From assembly GCA_900110635.1 (NCBI GenBank), contig FOEK01000006.1, positions 124,001 to 188,000 on the forward strand: 64,000 nucleotides of DNA. The letters are read 5' to 3'. This DNA is from Lachnospiraceae bacterium NE2001 (GTDB lineage: Bacteria; Bacillota; Clostridia; Lachnospirales; Lachnospiraceae). The notes beneath the pieces were generated by a model. The model saw only the letters and a list, made by a program, of their open reading frames with translations, was not told where the DNA came from and made no database searches. This document shows, in pieces, positions 53,934 to 62,272 of this stretch. A program made the translations under genes and the position numbers. Numbering within the stretch: position 1 is the stretch's first letter; every line of letters begins with the position of its first letter.

Positions 53934-54626
53934 TTATTTATTTGTGAACTCACCAGACAGATGGCCGATAGCTACTATATTACCTGTATTACCATCCACA
54001 TCTGTATCTGTAGAATCTATGAAGTCCTGCATATTCAGGGTCTGGGTATTTACACCACCCTTCAGTCTGTCAATTGGATTCTTAAGGGCTATAACATACA
54101 CATCATATGTATGAGTTCCGCCCTCTGGAGGATACGGTCCGACATAATCAGAATCCGGTGCCCAGCCCTCAGCCAGGGAGGTCTCTGTAATACCATTTGA
54201 GTTCCAATGCAGGAAGTAATGCATGCTTATATCTACCATATAGATAGCATAAACTGTAGCGCCCTCTACTGGTTCCCAGGTAAGTTCAGGAGATGCATTT
54301 GACCCCTCATCAGTCTTTGAGATCACATCATTCCACACACCGTCCTGAAGACTGCTGGAGGTCACCTCAAAACTTTCATACTTGCTGACTAGATCGTCTC
54401 CATCATAGGGAAGGATGGCACTGTCCGACTTCTCCTCATTATCTTCAGTGGCAGCCTCTGTTTCTTCTTCTGTTTCTTCCTCTGTCATTTCCACCGTAGT
54501 TGCCTCAGTAGTTGTAAGTGACGTGGTTTCTTCTTCTGTAACATTTGCCTCACTGGTTCCGCAGCCTGCCAGTGACAGGACAAGCAGAGAGCATATTACA
54601 GAAGCTATTCGTTTTCTATGTTTCAT
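53934..54626 (-). CDS. PEBP (YbhB/YbcL)-like lipoprotein
   Basis: Lipoprotein signal with lipobox LAGC (Cys22), then a long Thr/Glu-rich linker to about residue 75 and a phosphatidylethanolamine-binding-protein domain with SNASPELTWEPVEGA, YAIYMVDI, FLHWNSNGI and YVGPYPPEGGTHTYDVYVIAL, all standard PEBP ligand-pocket lines. The function of bacterial PEBP proteins is largely unknown; this one is exposed outside the membrane. ATG 54626 (MKHRKRIASV) with GAAAGGTGAAGG is chosen over an upstream frame without a site. Confidence 0.85.
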   Translation of the reverse strand: MKHRKRIASVICSLLVLSLAGCGTSEANVTEEETTSLTTTEATTVEMTEEETEEETEAATEDNEEKSDSAILPYDGDDLVSKYESFEVTSSSLQDGVWNDVISKTDEGSNASPELTWEPVEGATVYAIYMVDISMHYFLHWNSNGITETSLAEGWAPDSDYVGPYPPEGGTHTYDVYVIALKNPIDRLKGGVNTQTLNMQDFIDSTDTDVDGNTGNIVAIGHLSGEFTNK

Positions 54627-54745
54627 AACCTTCACCTTTCTATATACTTTTTCACTATGGGCGTATGATACAACGTAAATGTACACAAAATGTATCCATA
54701 TGCCTTCCGGACATTAAATCTTTTGTAGAAGTAAAGACTAGCAGA

Positions 54746-54803: not shown

Positions 54804-55385
54804 ATGAACGAATCAGATGAGCGCTACAGCACAGTGGAGGAGGCGATATTCGATGCCTTCTTCCTCTTAATAAAGGATAAAGACCTGGAGAAGATTACTG
54901 TATCCGATGTGATCAAGAAAGCAGGAATAGTTCGAAGTACATTTTATAATCATTATGAAAATATCCCCGCACTGCTTACAGCAGCCGAGGATAAGACCAT
55001 AAATGATATTTTCAAAATTATGGAGAGCTTTCACCCAAAGAATGACCACGATATGTGTCACTCTTATTATCTGGCAATCTGCAACTATACGAAGAAGAAT
55101 CCATTTCTGGCAAATCTTCTGGAAACACCGAGAGGCGATGCCTTTTTTGAGAAGGCAATCACCATGTTTCATAAGTATGTAACAGATGTTACGTCTGCTT
55201 CTATGTCTCAACCAAAGGAGAGAACAGAGTTTTCGTATATGATAGCCGGGGCTATCGGAAGCACCCTGGGTGTTCTGCACAAATGGACCGCAGAAGGTTT
55301 TTCGACCCCTGCGGAAGAGGTTGCGGATGTTCTGGCGAAGATATTCCTGTCAGGGATACTGCCTTATATATCCGGCAACCATTAG
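54804..55385 (+). CDS. TetR-family transcriptional regulator
   Basis: N-terminal helix-turn-helix (about residues 25-68) reads LEKITVSDVIKKAGIVRSTFYNHYENIPALL, diagnostic for TetR proteins; the rest is a helical ligand-binding domain without recognised specificity. 193 residues. It converges on the acyl-ligase gene with only 5 nt between the two stop codons and no terminator hairpin visible, so the transcripts must overlap. The likely target is the three-gene operon opposite. Confidence 0.88.
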   Translation: MNESDERYSTVEEAIFDAFFLLIKDKDLEKITVSDVIKKAGIVRSTFYNHYENIPALLTAAEDKTINDIFKIMESFHPKNDHDMCHSYYLAICNYTKKNPFLANLLETPRGDAFFEKAITMFHKYVTDVTSASMSQPKERTEFSYMIAGAIGSTLGVLHKWTAEGFSTPAEEVADVLAKIFLSGILPYISGNH

Positions 55386-55390
55386 TTTTT

Positions 55391-56914
55391 TTAGTCGAGG
55401 GTGGCGTCGGCACGAACGATCTTGCCAGTTGCATTTCTGTGAAATGGATTCTGACGGATCACCAATGATATAATCTGACGATAGGTTGGCTGCTTCTGGT
55501 TGTACTCTTTGATGAGTGCATCCAGGGCAGTTTTTATATTGTCATCATCAAGCCCCTTTGCCCTTACCACATCCTGATCTGGATAAATGCGGGCTGTGAG
55601 TCCGTTATTCTCACCTGTTACTACAACCTCACCTACAAGCGGGTTTAACCCCAGCTTGTTCTCAATTTCCTCAGGGGATATGTTTTCTCCATTTGACAAA
55701 ATTATAAGATTCTTTACTCGTCCGTTGATAAACAGGAAGCCATCCTCATCTATATAACCCTTGTCGCCTGTATGGAGCCAGCCATCTGCCAGAGTCTCTG
55801 CTGTTTCAGCATGCATCTTGTAATAGCCCTTCATTACACTGGAGCCCTGAACCTGTATCTCGCCATCTACGAAGCGGACTTTTACATTTGACAGAGGTTT
55901 TCCTATGGAACCTATCTTGTAATCCTCTGGATCATTGGAGCTGATAACTGGTGAGCATTCTGACATACCATAGCCCTCCAGAACCTGAACTCCATACTCT
56001 GCCAGTTTTTCTATATAAAATGGATCAAGATGTGCTCCGCCTGTAAAGATGATTCTCAGATTTCCGCCAAAAACATTTGCTGCCACCGCCGCCTTGGGGA
56101 GAGAAGGATCGACGGCTGACAGTCTTTTATATATGGTCTCTATCATAAGAGGCACCATGAGCATAACCTCTGGCTTAAAGATTCCCATATTTCGAACCAT
56201 ATGCATAAATGAGTCGTTGATGCAGACTGTTGCTCCAAGGGAGAAGCCCTTCAGCCAGTCCATTACGAGGCAAAATGCATGATGAATAGGAAGGACACTG
56301 AGCAGTGTGCAGCCCGGTTCAGCTGAGTATGGAACTGACACCACATTCTGAGCCAGATTCAGCTGAGTCAGCATAACACCCTTGCTCTTCCCTGTGGTAC
56401 CAGATGTATAGATTAGTGTTGCCACTTCTTCTGAGGAGCGGCCAGACACATCCTGTACGCCTTCTGCTTTTGCCTTAAGATCTGCAACAGTATCAAAGCC
56501 TTCTTCTGTCTCTTCCTGAAGAAGCCATATCTTCCTTATTTTCGGACATTCAGCCTTTACTATGTCGATCAAGGCTTTGCCCTTCGGTGCCAGAAAAAGT
56601 GCCTCTGCATCGCTGTCATTTAACAGTGCTACCAGGTCCTCAGCCGGAAGACCAGCGTCGAGGGGTACTGCCACATTATTTCCTGTGGTAATTCCAAGAT
56701 AAGCCCCTATCCAGCTGACGGAAGCTGTGCCTATCAGAGAGATATGAGCATTCTCAAAGCCCTCAGCCTTAAGGCCCTTTCTGATACTGACAATATCATC
56801 ATTCAACTCACTATATGTACGGCTCTCTATATCCTTTTTTACGAGCCATTTTACCGCAGGAATCTCAGCATACTTTGTATACGCACTATCCCAGATCTCA
56901 CGAATATTATTCAT
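55391..56914 (-). CDS. AMP-forming acyl ligase (acyl-CoA/acyl-ACP synthetase-like)
   Basis: ANL-superfamily enzyme that activates a carboxylic acid with ATP and loads it as thioester, here probably onto the carrier protein encoded 25 nt upstream. Motifs in order: A3 P-loop YTSGTTGKSKGV at 169-180, A5 GYGMSECSP at 314-322, A7 HTGDKGYI at 381-388, A8 GRVKNLIILSNGENISPEEIE at 398-418 and catalytic A10 NATGKI with K498. The 507-residue length and VPLDAGLP stretch are those of free-standing fatty-acyl or aryl ligases rather than NRPS modules. ATG 56914 with GGAGAAAGAG; the longer frame runs into the ACP gene. The acid used is unknown. Confidence 0.88.
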   Translation of the reverse strand: MNNIREIWDSAYTKYAEIPAVKWLVKKDIESRTYSELNDDIVSIRKGLKAEGFENAHISLIGTASVSWIGAYLGITTGNNVAVPLDAGLPAEDLVALLNDSDAEALFLAPKGKALIDIVKAECPKIRKIWLLQEETEEGFDTVADLKAKAEGVQDVSGRSSEEVATLIYTSGTTGKSKGVMLTQLNLAQNVVSVPYSAEPGCTLLSVLPIHHAFCLVMDWLKGFSLGATVCINDSFMHMVRNMGIFKPEVMLMVPLMIETIYKRLSAVDPSLPKAAVAANVFGGNLRIIFTGGAHLDPFYIEKLAEYGVQVLEGYGMSECSPVISSNDPEDYKIGSIGKPLSNVKVRFVDGEIQVQGSSVMKGYYKMHAETAETLADGWLHTGDKGYIDEDGFLFINGRVKNLIILSNGENISPEEIENKLGLNPLVGEVVVTGENNGLTARIYPDQDVVRAKGLDDDNIKTALDALIKEYNQKQPTYRQIISLVIRQNPFHRNATGKIVRADATLD

Positions 56915-56939
56915 CTCTTTCTCCGTCCCCTGTCTTTTA

Positions 56940-57176
56940 TTAGGCTTCCACAAGTTCTTCAAGCATGTCCAGGGCTTCACCGATGGTGCGTACCTGCACT
57001 GCTCTGTCAAGGTCAAGCTCTACGTCAAAGGTGTCTTCTATCTCACCAAGAAATGTCATAAAGTCCAGTGAGCTGAGGCCAAGGTCCTCACGAAGGCTCA
57101 TATCGTCTGTCATTTCCGCTGCTGGGACACTTGAATACTGTGCTACTAATTCTTTAAAATCTTCTGCTCTATTCAT
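56940..57176 (-). CDS. Acyl carrier protein, dedicated
   Basis: 78 residues, four-helix carrier protein with the phosphopantetheine site DLGLSSLDF (S36). It is encoded between a condensation-like gene (22 nt upstream) and an acyl ligase (25 nt downstream), away from fatty-acid synthesis genes, so it is a specialised carrier rather than AcpP. The DLGLSSLDFM line differs slightly from the DSLD of housekeeping carriers. ATG 57176 with AAGGAGAAAG. Confidence 0.92.
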   Translation of the reverse strand: MNRAEDFKELVAQYSSVPAAEMTDDMSLREDLGLSSLDFMTFLGEIEDTFDVELDLDRAVQVRTIGEALDMLEELVEA

Positions 57177-57198
57177 AATCTTTCTCCTTTTGTATTTA

Positions 57199-58584
57199 TT
57201 ACACTGCAGCGATAATGTCGCTGATCTTCATATCGGGGTTTGAGATGCCCATAAAGAGTATGCGCATCATATAGTAGTATAGGAGCTCCATATCCTTCTC
57301 AGTGAGACTTGCTGTCTGGTAGTGATATGAGAAGTTCATTCCTCCGTTCTCGGTGTGTGAAACCGTCAGGTACATCTTCTTGGTAGCGGCTCCATTGGCA
57401 AACCATTTGGAATGCATTGGGATATTCTTAAGGAATGGGTTATCCATATGTACAGGCATAGGCTGATATGTGAGGTAACAGCTTTCGTAGGTGGTGTCGT
57501 CTGGTGTCTTGTAACGACGCTTCATTTCCTCGCGGATAAGTGCCGGATCGTAGTTGCTGTGCATATAGATGCGGTTCTGAACATTCTGTATCTCATAAGC
57601 CGCCGACATAAAGTCCATATCACCAGGTATCACGGTTCTGCAAGGGAACATTATGGTTCTGCTTCCACCTGAAGTCCATTCATCGTGAGTAGAACGACGG
57701 GAAATGAAGTTCTCTATGGTGATATCCTCCTGTCCGTCATTTACCTTTGACAGATATGTTCTGATTCCAAGCAGCAGCAGGTTTGTCATTGACAGCTGAT
57801 GATTCATACAGAAATCTATCAGTCCCTTTGTAGGCTCCGGCTCCAGGATATAGTCCTTAACCGCAACGAACAGCTTCTTTCTTTCTATGTCTGCAGCCCT
57901 GAGGTTCTTTTTCTTATGCTTCTTTCTGGCTGCCTCCAGAACTCCAGGCCCCTGAATATCTGAATATAGGGGTTCTCCCAGAGCATCCAGCTGGTCATCC
58001 CAGAACTTCTTATCCTTAGCGAAACGCTTCTCATTTCCAGACTTTGCAAGATCCGACTCAAGCACCTTTTCAAAGTCCGCCAGATCCTGTGGATATTCTG
58101 CACCAAAACGATAATGTGTATAAAGCTGCATCAGGTCATTTACCATTACCACAAGTCCGCAGGAATCTATGAGACGGTGATCCATATGTACAAAGAAGCC
58201 ATTATAGCCCTCTGGCAGCTTCACCATTGTCACCTCGCACATAGGGCGGTTATCTCCATCAAGAGTTTCGTATGCCCACTGCTGCATAGTGTTATCAGCC
58301 TCTTCCAGCGTCATTCCTGTCATATCCTTAAGCGGTATGTCACGGGAATCGTGCTTTATAAGATACTGCTTTACCTCGCCCTTCTCATCAGGTTTTGTAA
58401 AGCGAAGCCTCATACATCCGTAACGCTCCATCTCCAGCTGTATACATTTTTTTAACAGCCCGAAATCAAGCTCAGCCTTAAGTGATGCAACGATACTCAC
58501 ACCAGAAACCTGCTGAGTATTGTATTCACGGATCCACTGATAATGCATATTCTGCGCTGCTGTAAGTGGGTACTCTTTTCTCAT
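57199..58584 (-). CDS. Stand-alone condensation-domain-like acyltransferase
   Basis: About 462 residues, a single domain that resembles NRPS condensation / polyketide-associated acyltransferase folds: N-terminal YPLTAAQNMHYQW, the active-site motif FVHMDHRLIDSCG (H136 and D140 keep the second His and the Asp of HHxxxDG; the first His is Asp and the Gly is Ser), and FLKNIPMHSKWF / MNFSYHYQTASLTEKDME near the C terminus. It should transfer an acyl group from the neighbouring carrier protein to an amine or alcohol. The altered motif sets it apart from peptide-forming C domains. ATG 58584 with GGGAGAGAACG; the longer frame has no site. Confidence 0.78.
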   Translation of the reverse strand: MRKEYPLTAAQNMHYQWIREYNTQQVSGVSIVASLKAELDFGLLKKCIQLEMERYGCMRLRFTKPDEKGEVKQYLIKHDSRDIPLKDMTGMTLEEADNTMQQWAYETLDGDNRPMCEVTMVKLPEGYNGFFVHMDHRLIDSCGLVVMVNDLMQLYTHYRFGAEYPQDLADFEKVLESDLAKSGNEKRFAKDKKFWDDQLDALGEPLYSDIQGPGVLEAARKKHKKKNLRAADIERKKLFVAVKDYILEPEPTKGLIDFCMNHQLSMTNLLLLGIRTYLSKVNDGQEDITIENFISRRSTHDEWTSGGSRTIMFPCRTVIPGDMDFMSAAYEIQNVQNRIYMHSNYDPALIREEMKRRYKTPDDTTYESCYLTYQPMPVHMDNPFLKNIPMHSKWFANGAATKKMYLTVSHTENGGMNFSYHYQTASLTEKDMELLYYYMMRILFMGISNPDMKISDIIAAV

Positions 58585-58697
58585 ACGTTCTCTCCCTCTT
58601 TTCTTTGATGATGGAGAGATTACTACAAAGCCTTGTAAAATGCTATACCCCCGGAGAGTTAATGAACACTTCACCATAAATTGACCGAAACATATCG

Positions 58698-58718
58698 AAC
58701 ACATCTAAAACATGTGTT
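58698..58718. promoter_or_regulatory. Palindrome upstream of the condensation operon, possible TetR operator
   Basis: AACACAT-CTAAAAC-ATGTGTT, two 7-bp perfect half sites, extended by TC/GA at the edges, 115 nt before the start of the operon. Size and symmetry suit a TetR dimer. The regulator gene has no copy in front of itself. Confidence 0.45.
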
Positions 58719-58760
58719 TGATAACTGCCACGTTCCCACCAAAAGCCTAAGCAAAAACCA

Positions 58761-58790
58761 TAATAAAAACCGCCAGTGTATCACTGACGG
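58761..58790 (-). terminator. Intrinsic terminator after the alpha/beta hydrolase gene
   Basis: Nine-bp stem CCGCCAGTG / CACTGACGG (one wobble) with loop TAT, followed on the minus strand by TTTTTATTA. It separates the hydrolase transcript from the condensation operon. Confidence 0.85.
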
Positions 58791-58820
58791 TCTCCACTAA
58801 GTATTTCACAAAACTATAAA

Positions 58821-59678
58821 CTAAGCGTCGCACCTTCCAAAAAAGTCTGTAAGCTTCTTCTTATAAAGCTCAGGTGCCACATAAGAACTGCAGAGATGCC
58901 TTGCTCCAGGAACCATCACCAGTTCCTTCGGTGCTCTGCATATCTTATAATTCATTTTAGATGCATAGGGCAGAACAAAGGTATCCTCTTCACCGTGAAA
59001 GAAAAGCACAGGACGGGTATTTTCAAGCAGTGCCTTTGTGGTATCTGCGTCCTTCATCCTGTAGCCCGCAAACAGCCTGCATATAAGATCAATTCGAAGA
59101 AGGATCAGACTATTAAAATGTATATGGAACCACCCCGAAGCCATATCTCTGAACTGCTGTCTCATTGAGTGAAAACTACAGTCTGCTATAATGCCCTTCA
59201 CCTCGTCCGGCATCCTGTGGCCTGACGCCATAATTACAGAAGCTGCTCCCATGGACTGTCCATACAGATATATAGGAAGCCTCTCCTTATTTTTCTTATG
59301 AAGCAGGCGTAACCATCTCAGTATATCGTACTGCTCCTTCGCTCCAAAGGTTATATATCTTCCCCCACTTTCTCCGCAGCATCTCTGATCAATAAACAGA
59401 ATACTGCAGCCATTTTCGTGCAGGAACTCAGCCATATGAGCTATGCTTCCGAACCGGGAGCCCTTATAGCCATGACTCAGAAGTACAATACGCTTCGGTT
59501 CTTCAGCAGGAAGATATGTAGCATGAAGTCTCAGTCCATCGAAGGACTTTATGTACCAGTCCGCCATAGGCTGGGCCTCACACCACTCTGTCACAGCCAG
59601 AAACTCCTTTTCGTAGCCATTTCTGGGATGGTTTATCTTTATAGGTTTTAACGGGATTATTCTATTCCTCTTTTTCAT
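58821..59678 (-). CDS. Alpha/beta hydrolase
   Basis: Serine hydrolase of the BAAT/YqkD-like group. The nucleophile elbow is YLYGQSMGAAS, the oxyanion region LLSHGYKGSR, the acid probably in HGEEDTFVL and the His in GARHLCSS. The CLxG-like line LFIDQRCCGESGG is typical for this family. 285 residues, a basic N terminus with no clear signal. The first 17 nt overlap the 3' end of the hybrid kinase gene, so they are co-translated. It ends at a terminator upstream of the condensation operon. Substrate unknown. Confidence 0.85.
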   Translation of the reverse strand: MKKRNRIIPLKPIKINHPRNGYEKEFLAVTEWCEAQPMADWYIKSFDGLRLHATYLPAEEPKRIVLLSHGYKGSRFGSIAHMAEFLHENGCSILFIDQRCCGESGGRYITFGAKEQYDILRWLRLLHKKNKERLPIYLYGQSMGAASVIMASGHRMPDEVKGIIADCSFHSMRQQFRDMASGWFHIHFNSLILLRIDLICRLFAGYRMKDADTTKALLENTRPVLFFHGEEDTFVLPYASKMNYKICRAPKELVMVPGARHLCSSYVAPELYKKKLTDFFGRCDA

Positions 59679-62220
59679 TTAATATATCACCTAAAGCATC
59701 CGCCAGAGCTTTATATTCCTTCATTACCTCATCGTGATGCTCCTTAACATAGTCCAGCTTTCCATCAGCTGCGGCGAACTCAAGATCCTTTGCCAATTCA
59801 AACAGCTTACTGCTTCCGATAGTTTTGGATGAACTCTTTACAGAGTGTACGATTACCTTGTAATCTTTCATATTCTCATCTGCCAGATAGCCTGCCAGCT
59901 CTTCTATCTTATCCGGAGTAGCGGCAACGTAATCGTGTAATATCTCTATATAGAACTCCTCATCCTCGCCGCAGTAGGTGAGTCCATCATCAGTATTCAG
60001 TCCAAGCTTCTTCAGACTGAGCAGAATCGGTGTTGATTCTGGTTCAACTGATTCAACGCTCTCTGCTGACAGATATTTTACAAGCATCTTCTCCATGGAG
60101 GACAGCTCTATCGGCTTAGAGAGATAGTCATCAAAGCCTGCAGCAAGGTACTGTTCACGAGCACCGACTACTGCATTTGCAGTAAGTGCCACAACCACAG
60201 TATCCCCCACAAGATTTTTCTCCTGAAGGAGCTTAAGAGTTTCTATACCATCCATTTCAGGCATCATATGATCCAGGAACAGCATATCATAATGGTTCTT
60301 TTCCATTATATCTATAGTCTCACGTCCCGACTGACAGAGATCCGGCTTGATACCAAAAAGCTTCATCAGGTTAGACACAACCTTCCGATTCATCTCGTTA
60401 TCGTCTGTAACAAGAATATGGGCATCCTTCACATTGATCAGCACGTCGCTGGCTGCACTCTTCTTAGGTGCCTTGCTTTCCAGATCATACTTTCCGATAG
60501 GCTTCTCGTTAACAACCTCTATTGGCAGTTCAAAATAAAACTCTGAGCCCACTCCGTACTCACTCTTTATCTTAAGCTCTGAGCCCATCATTTGAAGGAG
60601 CTTTGTCACTATTGAGATACCTAAACCAGTACCCTCTATGTGACGGTTCTTTTTCTCATCAACTCTCTCAAAGGAGATGGCCAGCTTATCTATATCCTCC
60701 TGCTTGATACCGATTCCTGTATCCTTAACGGAAACCAGCAGACGGCAGAAGCCCTTTGTGGTGCCAAGATTATACATCTTGAATATGATATAACCCTTCT
60801 CGGTATATTTCACTGCATTTGTAAGTATATTTGAGATAACCTGACTAATCCTTACATCATCACCAAGAAGCACTGATGGTATGGTCTCGTCAATATCAAG
60901 TCTGAGCTCAAGATTCTTTGCTCTTGCTCTTTCATCTACACTATGGACAAGTCCATTTATCATATTTGATAGTTCAAATGAAACTGGCACAAGGCTCATC
61001 TTTCCATCCTCAATCTTTGAAAAATCGAGAATAGAATTAATGATTGAAAGCAGTGTATGACCAGCGTTTTTTATATTGGATGCATACTCCAGAGTCTCTT
61101 TTTCCTTTGACTTCTGAAGTATCATTTCATTCATTCCCAGGATTGCGTTGATCGGCGTTCTGATCTCGTGGCTCATATCTGCCAGGAAATCACTCTTTGC
61201 CTTGTTGGCACTGTCTGCCGCAGACTTCTCCAGCTTAAGCACCTTAGCCTCATAGTCCTTCTTTCGCTCGTTTTCCTTTGCTTCCTCAAGTATCTGATAG
61301 GACTTTCTCTGACTCCTATAACCCAGAGTATAGAACACAGTTAGAAGCGCAAATACTATAAGCGTTATTACTATACTTGAGATCAAAAGCCATGTAGGAC
61401 CCTTGTAAAGCTCTGCATTCTTTGTCACGATAACCAGATACCACTGTTCCATTACTGTATCAACGAATACGGTACATTTATCTCCATCAATAGTTGTGAT
61501 GAAGCTTCCCTTTCCCAGAGCCGTGGCCTGATTGAAGACCTCCTTCTGCTCAGGATCCTCGTTATAGTACTTTCCATTCTCTGAACTGTCACGATGAGCT
61601 ATAACCATTCCATCGTTATTGACAACATAACCGTAACCGTAGCCATTTATCTGTATATCTTCAACTATTTCCTGAACGCCGTCCAGTGTAAGATCCAGTG
61701 CCATAACATTTTCATTATCTGTAAGAGCTCTGCCCACAGTTATGATAACGCTTCCAGTCTGGGCATCCACGTAGGGCGATACTATAACTATATCTCCATG
61801 TCCTTCGGTGGTCATTTTATACCAGTCTCTCTCGGTAGGTTCATAGCCTTCAGGTGGCACCCAGCCAACGCCGTCCACATAGCTGCCATTTATACATCCA
61901 TACAGACCAGTGTAACTCTCGTCGAACTGCTCCTCTGTTCTGGAGGACTCTCTGGTTATATATTCGACTATATCATCATAGGTTGCTCCATTTTCAACCA
62001 TATGGTCAACCGTATCTGCTGTGAGCCACAGAACGCTCTTGGCTGTATCCAGATAATTCTCTAGATCTGCTGTAACTGCTGTGGTCTTGTCTTCACCCAG
62101 CTCCTCCACAGATGAGAATGCCGTTCTAAAGATAACTCTGGATGTAAATATGTCCATAAGAGCCATCAGCAGAAAGGTACAGATTATTATAATAAACAGG
62201 TTTCTTTTACTTTTCTTCAT
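59662..62220 (-). CDS. Hybrid sensor histidine kinase with Cache sensor, REC and Hpt domains
   Basis: Membrane helix (about 8-28), a dCache extracellular domain (about 35-275; DYVGWVPPEGYEPTERDWY-type line visible), a second helix (about 278-300), a coiled coil, HisKA DMSHEIRTPINAILGMNEMI, ATPase with NAVKYTEKG and GTGLGISI, a receiver domain with MLFLDHMMPEMDG and a C-terminal Hpt with the VIVHSVKSSSKTIG phosphotransfer His. About 852 residues. Such a chain can pass phosphate His-Asp-His to a separate receiver, for which the divergent REC-GGDEF protein is an obvious partner. ATG 62220 (MKKSKRNLF) with GGAG is preferred to 62232. Confidence 0.9.
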   Translation of the reverse strand: MKKSKRNLFIIIICTFLLMALMDIFTSRVIFRTAFSSVEELGEDKTTAVTADLENYLDTAKSVLWLTADTVDHMVENGATYDDIVEYITRESSRTEEQFDESYTGLYGCINGSYVDGVGWVPPEGYEPTERDWYKMTTEGHGDIVIVSPYVDAQTGSVIITVGRALTDNENVMALDLTLDGVQEIVEDIQINGYGYGYVVNNDGMVIAHRDSSENGKYYNEDPEQKEVFNQATALGKGSFITTIDGDKCTVFVDTVMEQWYLVIVTKNAELYKGPTWLLISSIVITLIVFALLTVFYTLGYRSQRKSYQILEEAKENERKKDYEAKVLKLEKSAADSANKAKSDFLADMSHEIRTPINAILGMNEMILQKSKEKETLEYASNIKNAGHTLLSIINSILDFSKIEDGKMSLVPVSFELSNMINGLVHSVDERARAKNLELRLDIDETIPSVLLGDDVRISQVISNILTNAVKYTEKGYIIFKMYNLGTTKGFCRLLVSVKDTGIGIKQEDIDKLAISFERVDEKKNRHIEGTGLGISIVTKLLQMMGSELKIKSEYGVGSEFYFELPIEVVNEKPIGKYDLESKAPKKSAASDVLINVKDAHILVTDDNEMNRKVVSNLMKLFGIKPDLCQSGRETIDIMEKNHYDMLFLDHMMPEMDGIETLKLLQEKNLVGDTVVVALTANAVVGAREQYLAAGFDDYLSKPIELSSMEKMLVKYLSAESVESVEPESTPILLSLKKLGLNTDDGLTYCGEDEEFYIEILHDYVAATPDKIEELAGYLADENMKDYKVIVHSVKSSSKTIGSSKLFELAKDLEFAAADGKLDYVKEHHDEVMKEYKALADALGDILNEKEE

Positions 62221-62272
62221 ATATTTCTCCATTTACCGGACAGGATTAAAAGCCCGCCCGGTTTCCTCATAC

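Follow-up and report, generated by a model that had tools for sequence, protein, structure and literature searches.

Three adjacent genes of Lachnospiraceae bacterium NE2001, which encode a free-standing condensation protein, an acyl carrier protein and an AMP-forming ligase, very probably constitute a cassette for fatty acid amides (FAA) of the same kind as OaaA/OaaACP/OaaC, to judge from their sequences. They lie in the window, the stretch of 64,000 nucleotides analysed here, and add to the known FAA pathway a further branch with a linked hydrolase, a regulator and a promoter element (Table 1).

The oleoyl aminovaleric acid system OaaA/OaaACP/OaaC was described in a 2026 preprint by Singh, Grant and Gulick, who credit Chang et al. 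2021 (PMC13142362). Together with OaaA and OaaACP, OaaC joins oleoyl, palmitoleoyl and lauroyl groups to aminovaleric acid and to GABA as amides, and it is a homodimer that is opened by the holo- or acyl-carrier (PMC13142362). OaaC-like proteins carry the motif (D/H)HxxxDS, whose last residue varies across 127 FAA proteins (42% Ser, 36% Ala, 17% Gly) (PMC13142362).

Table 1 Features of the cassette and its neighbourhood (positions in the window).
Feature	Position	Strand	Evidence
Condensation protein of the OaaC-like FAA type, free-standing; motif DHRLIDS	57199..58584	-	Pfam PF00668; phmmer to 12KH
Acyl carrier protein dedicated to the cassette; phosphopantetheine site at Ser36 of GLSSLDF, as read from the sequence	56940..57176	-	Pfam PF00550
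Fatty acid ligase, AMP-forming; adenylation protein with a role like that of OaaA	55391..56914	-	Pfam PF00501, PF23562
TetR-family regulator, TetR_C_8 type, convergent with the ligase	54804..55385	+	Pfam PF14278
Alpha/beta serine hydrolase (GQSMG), conserved neighbour of the cassette	58821..59678	-	
31-bp palindrome, 12-nt arms and 7-nt centre, 5′ of the condensation gene; candidate operator	58693..58723	.	
Terminator-like hairpin between hydrolase and condensation genes	58761..58799	-	Hairpin scan

Results

The open reading frame coordinates bear out the layout given in a first-pass annotation, a minus-strand trio with gaps of 22 nt (condensation–carrier) and 25 nt (carrier–ligase) and a convergent TetR gene with 5 nt between its stop and that of the ligase. 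The products are 461 (condensation protein), 78 (carrier), 507 (ligase) and 193 (TetR) residues long, counted for the condensation protein from the ATG at 58584 and for the ligase from the ATG at 56914; the mechanical list of frames begins 120 nt further upstream for the former and at an upstream TTG for the latter. Pfam assigns the trio to Condensation (PF00668, E 1.6e-34), PP-binding (PF00550, E 1.4e-12) and AMP-binding (PF00501, E 1.6e-59) with AMP-binding_C_3 (PF23562), and core motifs are legible in all three. Those of the ligase read YTSGTTGKSKG, YGMSECSP, GWLHTGDKGYID and NATGKIVR, that of the carrier GLSSLDF and that of the condensation protein DHRLIDS. The best NCBIfam match of the ligase is the long-chain-fatty-acid--CoA ligase PRK06187, at 237.8 bits against a cut-off of 476. 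The first reading drew the limits of the cassette too tightly, as the conserved neighbourhood also holds an operator-like palindrome and a hydrolase gene; the latter, next upstream on the same strand, was overlooked when the cassette was said to have no thioesterase-like neighbour.

The condensation protein aligns over residues 2–460 with PDB entry 12KH (phmmer E 6.8e-178), which the data statement of the published work identifies as OaaC of Coprococcus eutactus (PMC13142362), at 53.7% identity across 458 aligned positions. Its PDB matches are OaaC and the NRPS PvdL, and only OaaC falls below 1e-20. The motif DHRLIDS (residues 135–141; DHRLMDS in OaaC) occurs in 86 of 89 sequences of the branch to which the protein belongs, hereafter branch A, and OaaC matches 176 of the 261 columns that are at least 95% conserved in this branch. 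In a FastTree phylogeny of 121 sequences, from which canonical NRPS C domains and one fragment (L149) were left out, branch A, OaaC and three OaaC-like proteins form one side of a branch with a support of 0.986. The marks of an FAA system are thereby present, namely a free-standing PF00668 protein with a (D/H)HxxxDS-type motif, separate adjoining adenylation and carrier proteins, and grouping with OaaC. Separate proteins and DHRLIDS rather than HHxxxDG speak against a canonical NRPS module or fragment, the relation to NRPS C domains being taken from PMC13142362, and a housekeeping enzyme is set aside given the PF00668 assignment and OaaC as the sole PDB sequence match at that level. The motif had been read correctly at the outset, but the stress laid on its oddity falls away, since it is that of the OaaC family. 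This motif and the identity to OaaC also mean that the class of product is not unknown, and the statement that it was is superseded by a solved and reconstituted relative.

Of 299 genomes sampled from the bacterial family, 9 have a branch-A member. Conservation of the three genes together, on which the first-pass annotation had staked its reading, holds in relatives: the carrier adjoins the condensation gene in 83/83 eligible branch-A loci and the ligase is kept beside it in 75/75, eligible loci being those with enough flank. The TetR gene is convergent in 56 of 62. The same order of condensation, carrier and ligase genes recurs in all three OaaC-like loci, and in a distant FAA-like branch the carrier is found in 25/29 and the ligase in 22/25 eligible loci. 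The same genes lying side by side in relatives indicate that the cassette is more than a chance arrangement. At least two loci are duplicated under two identifiers (L062 = L111, L083 = L114) and were kept in the gene-order, basic-residue and palindrome counts. Among the best 80 of 158 loci, a selection that consequently leans to branch A, named cultured members of the branch include Eubacterium ruminantium, Butyrivibrio sp. AC2005 and XPD2002, and strains LC2019, AC2029 and MA2020; an animal-gut sample appears in 17 of these 80 record titles, and in 16 of the 17 it is ruminant gut.

Identity to OaaC at this level leaves the amine unfixed. Six positions that are basic in branch A and OaaC were compared in 25 distant-branch proteins (L122, L123 and L148 left out). 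Arg137, within the motif, is basic in 4 of the 25 (mostly Met/Leu) and Lys403 in 1 (mostly Ala/Gly/Thr), whereas Arg187 (mostly Ala), Lys243 (mostly Asp), His300 (mostly Leu) and His421 (Glu in 25/25) are basic in none. Because these residues of OaaC are kept here and lacking in the distant branch, we tentatively favour an omega-amino acid acceptor (5-aminovalerate or GABA, both of which OaaC is known to use) over an aromatic amine. An FAA cassette that uses another acceptor, such as an aromatic monoamine, ethanolamine or cadaverine, is a somewhat less probable but serious alternative: selectivity for the amine is reported for FAA systems, with several products cited (PMC13142362), an excerpt of a review ascribes oleoylethanolamide to a Eubacterium rectale cluster, branch A is separate from OaaC, and a decarboxylase gene of the OKR_DC_1 family (lysine/ornithine/arginine) in the genome is a possible source of diamine. 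The retained basic residues argue against it. No match to the PF00282 decarboxylase was found in the genome, so GABA made via glutamate decarboxylase, or aromatic amines made via this family, would have to come from outside; a search for D-proline reductase (PrdA) matched none of the control genomes and so carries no information.

The upstream hydrolase probably serves the same pathway as the cassette. Of 80 eligible branch-A loci, 56 have it next to the cassette, and its GQSMG serine is invariant in 50 aligned sequences (49 of 56 listed relatives and the hydrolase of the window, the alignment used for the model). The structure comparison took a second look at 1000 Foldseek-ranked chains and returned 50, and families missing there may still match. 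It is rather unlikely, in our estimate, that the hydrolase is a passenger, adjacent through shared descent and unrelated to the cassette. Pointing that way, in 24 of the 80 loci the 2.2 kb upstream contain no such gene on the strand of the cassette (6 of these loci carry one elsewhere within 6 kb), and none of the three OaaC-like loci has one nearby, so that it is not essential to the FAA kind. In the window a terminator-like hairpin also separates the hydrolase and condensation genes, which in this genome would then be separate transcripts, the hairpin scan (2 sites against 3.7 in shuffles) being weak on its own. Against a passenger, strong matches to the hydrolase (at least 345 bits) are confined to 6 of the 299 genomes, each of them one of the 9 that carry a branch-A condensation gene, and the next best genome reaches 221 bits. 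Moreover, a different hydrolase lineage takes this position in 26 of the 29 loci of the distant branch. A tree in which the two lineages linked to cassettes share an origin that excludes 19 other hydrolases is rejected (p-AU 0.006), the grouping having been specified with the first tree already in view. The hydrolase trees used 60 of 112 sequences, namely every fifth branch-A sequence, the hydrolase of the window and all others.

The convergent TetR protein is probably a dedicated regulator of the cassette. It matches TetR_C_8 (PF14278; 27.7 bits, cut-off 26.1) and falls just under the cut-off for TetR_N (23.7 against 24). Its best NCBIfam match is to the DhaS-type regulators (TIGR02366), but the score of 37.3 bits is far under the cut-off of 129, and assignment as a DhaS regulator was rejected; a literature search for a DhaS operator returned no paper naming DhaS. 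The palindrome 5′ of the condensation gene is, from its sequence and conservation, a candidate operator, a single site at which TetR would act. It is the sole match with at most three mismatches in the 3.72-Mb genome and the sole match in the window (none in 100 shuffles), and it recurs with at most five mismatches in 55 of 88 branch-A upstream regions, against 2 of 88 when shuffled. No 9-mer common to the condensation-gene and TetR promoters was found, the nearest being A-rich words in at most 4 of 71 TetR promoters, and nothing accordingly suggests that TetR autoregulates by way of this palindrome. Sigma-70-like sites were about as frequent as chance predicts (10 found, 11.0 expected).

Discussion

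In the proposed reaction, the ligase would adenylate a free fatty acid and load it onto the phosphopantetheine arm of the carrier at Ser36, and the condensation protein would transfer the chain onto a small amine that diffuses freely, releasing an N-acyl amine. The genome contains one PPTase-family gene that could arm the carrier. The outline of this scheme, in which a simple conjugate results, was already set out in the first-pass annotation and agrees with the published FAA systems. The most likely product would be a signalling-type lipid made from a fatty acid and a small amine, as already described in human gut bacteria. That the condensation protein is instead a PapA or wax-ester type acyltransferase, giving an ester or structural lipid rather than a diffusible amide, is very improbable: these enzymes and condensation proteins have the broad CoA-dependent acyltransferase fold in common and the ligase is of the fatty-acid-ligase type, but Condensation (PF00668) is the only family matched at E 0.001 or better, and OaaC stands alone among the strong PDB matches.

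Within an amide-forming pathway, the hydrolase could free fatty acids from esters, clear mis-loaded carrier or turn the amide over. We suggest, as a conjecture that may well not hold, that FAA cassettes of this kind are five-part regulons and not units of three genes. On this view a dedicated serine hydrolase was recruited on at least two independent occasions, each time to the same place upstream of the condensation gene, and a dedicated TetR acts on a single genomic operator. If so, the hydrolase would select the fatty acids that reach the cassette, by lipase action or carrier editing, or degrade the amide, and a host-type lipid signal would be both made and broken down within one coupled bacterial circuit. 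The hydrolase and single-operator TetR would then give handles on the timing and limits of amide production. Words for a hydrolase or TetR are absent from the main text of PMC13142362. A literature search on rumen FAA clusters returned no 'fatty acid amide', which does not imply absence from print. The cassette extends a pathway for GPCR-active lipids, already solved and reconstituted from the human gut, to a branch with cultured strains, and since the cassette is found in such strains and in animal-gut samples, N-acyl amide production outside the human gut is directly testable.

Like OaaA/OaaACP/OaaC, the cassette comprises three separate proteins with matching domain types, and its condensation protein aligns end to end with OaaC, although 46% of the aligned residues differ. 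The three OaaC-like loci depart from branch A in having no linked hydrolase and in the absence of the exact palindrome spacing, one of them (L120) having similar arms one base closer. The distant branch, from the same bacterial family and with condensation proteins 29–39% identical, has the same condensation–carrier–ligase order and an alpha/beta hydrolase directly upstream, but its motif ends in DA in 25/28, another, divergent TetR is present in 20/29 loci and an SCP2-like protein in 16/29. Starter condensation domains of lipopeptide NRPSs, the nearest neighbouring clade of FAA condensation proteins (PMC13142362), likewise use an acyl donor, but they are parts of multidomain proteins and act on carrier-bound amino acids, whereas the system described here is built of three separate proteins.

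Identity and organization of the cassette

The condensation protein strongly matches structure 12KH (E 6.8e-178, residues 2-460 of 461), followed among solved structures by chains of the NRPS PvdL at 5e-06 and weaker. 12KH is OaaC from Coprococcus eutactus; fatty acid amide (FAA) systems comprise adenylation, carrier and condensation as three free-standing proteins, and OaaC-like proteins carry the motif (D/H)HxxxDS (PMC13142362). The first-pass annotation had described a three-gene cassette facing a TetR gene, and open reading frames and Pfam matches bear out this layout, with gaps of 22, 25 and 5 nt. Among the matches listed (25 of 101 for the ligase), none of the four proteins reaches an NCBIfam cut-off. 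The whole 3.72-Mb genome, with the window on contig C59, holds a single match to the condensation protein. Upstream, the start of an alpha/beta serine hydrolase gene overlaps the end of a histidine kinase gene; this hydrolase lacks the hydrophobic N-terminus found in 7 of 8 relatives listed. A YbhB/YbcL-like protein adjoins the TetR.

Features of the window and of compared loci (L-numbers)
Feature	Location	Strand	Assignment
YbhB/YbcL-like protein	53934-54686		Phosphatidylethanolamine-binding type
TetR	54804-55385	+	Pfam TetR_C_8
Ligase	55391-56914	-	Pfam AMP-binding
Carrier	56940-57176	-	Pfam PP-binding
Condensation protein	57199-58584	-	Pfam Condensation
Palindrome	58693-58723		Candidate operator
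Hydrolase	58821-59678	-	Alpha/beta serine hydrolase
Histidine kinase	59662-62232		
Orphan condensation protein	L122:7072-8475		
Orphan condensation protein	L123:7441-8829		
SCP2-type protein	L124:10262-10591		
Divergent TetR	L124:10831-11466		

Relatives and conserved gene order

Condensation relatives at E 1e-20 or better occur in 42 of 299 sampled genomes of the bacterial family. Nine of these belong to branch A, which includes the window, with identities of 72-100%; three have proteins 53-59% identical (the OaaC-like L119, L120 and L121), and 30 fall in the distant branch at 29-39%. Named genomes gave 158 relatives, from Lachnospiraceae; the best 80 of these, 78-93% identical, include Eubacterium ruminantium, Butyrivibrio sp. 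AC2005 and XPD2002, and strains LC2019, AC2029 and MA2020. Of these 80 titles, 17 mention a sample from an animal gut, taken from ruminant gut sites in 16 cases and from wild mice in one. DHRLIDS is the motif in 86/89 branch-A proteins. In a FastTree phylogeny built from 121 condensation sequences, a branch with support 0.986 has OaaC, the three OaaC-like proteins and branch A together on one side; branch A by itself has support 0.815.

Across 88 branch-A loci besides the window, counted over eligible loci, the carrier is kept in 83/83 and the ligase in 75/75. TetR is convergent in 56/62 and lies elsewhere within 6 kb in 3 more; the hydrolase is upstream on the same strand in 56/80, and 6 of the other 24 hold one elsewhere within 6 kb. 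The three OaaC-like loci have carrier (3), ligase (3), convergent TetR (2) and hydrolase (0). Distant-branch loci retain carrier (25/29), ligase (22/25) and hydrolase (26/29), with the branch-A-type TetR convergent in 0/25.

When all ORFs of at least 80 aa in 121 loci were clustered, nine families proved to be present in at least 10 loci. Besides the condensation, ligase, hydrolase and TetR families, these comprise an ORF lying antisense across the carrier (27 loci), the carrier itself (17, most carriers being below 80 aa) and an ATP-binding cassette-like protein (13, of which 10 are in branch A and 3 in the distant branch). The other two, a different TetR in divergent orientation (20) and an SCP2-like protein (16), are confined to the distant branch. 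The YbhB/YbcL-like family is not among the nine. The SCP2-type protein lies upstream of the hydrolase in 16/29 distant-branch loci and the divergent TetR occurs in 20/29; in L124 the latter weakly matches BetI and the fatty-acid regulator FadR, below cut-off. Gene order in the distant relative L148 (genome G047; 27-29% identity) is condensation, ligase, carrier. Neither carrier nor ligase matches lie within 6 kb of the orphans in L122 and L123 (38% identical, motif DHRIMDS), whose neighbours are AbiH and TetR_C_8 proteins (L122) and a LacI regulator and solute-binding protein (L123).

A candidate operator upstream of the condensation gene

Branch-A upstream regions contain an inverted repeat, TATCAAACAC-N11-GTGTTYGATA. 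With up to 2 mismatches per arm and free spacing it occurs in 43/88 regions vs 2/88 shuffled, all 43 with identical spacing, and in 1/3 OaaC-like (L120, one base closer) and 0/29 distant loci. Fixed spacing with up to 5 mismatches in total finds 55/88 vs 2/88 shuffled, and 0/3 OaaC-like and 0/29 distant loci. Only a minority of matches lie elsewhere in branch-A loci, since 1.16 Mb holds 69 overall against 55 upstream regions. The window genome has the palindrome once, 108 nt ahead of the condensation start codon.

Both arms are altered together in L083 (TAACAAACAC/GTGTTTGTTA) and L112 (TATCATACAT with GTGTATGATA), paired changes that point to selection on symmetry beyond mere shared descent. 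L058 and L095, the two full-flank branch-A loci without TetR, also lack the palindrome, yet 25 loci possessing convergent TetR lack it as well. We infer that the palindrome is a candidate operator of this TetR, whose segment VRSTFYNH, judged by its position to be the recognition helix, is nearly constant. In L116 the TetR is diverged (54%) and relocated, and the palindrome differs (GGACAC...GTGTCC) with unchanged spacing, possibly a co-varied operator.

Acceptor amine and comparison with known FAA systems

Branch A and OaaC share basic residues, including Arg137 (within the motif), Arg187, Lys243, His300, Lys403 and His421, at positions that are seldom basic among 25 proteins of the distant branch. 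This pattern tentatively favours an acceptor bearing a carboxylate, as with OaaC. The 3.72-Mb genome has no match to the PF00282 decarboxylase; it carries an OKR_DC_1 gene and one ACPS-family gene.

Reconstituted FAA products are amides of aminovaleric acid and GABA with oleoyl, palmitoleoyl and lauroyl chains, and OaaC gave no product with oleoyl-CoA (PMC13142362). The main text of that preprint, as distinct from Chang et al. 2021, which it credits with first describing the system, does not contain 'hydrolase', 'TetR', 'rumen' or 'Butyrivibrio'. The parts deserving follow-up are the extras, namely the hydrolase, the TetR and the single palindrome. By sequence, the condensation, carrier and ligase genes are a well-conserved FAA cassette, a further branch of a kind already known.
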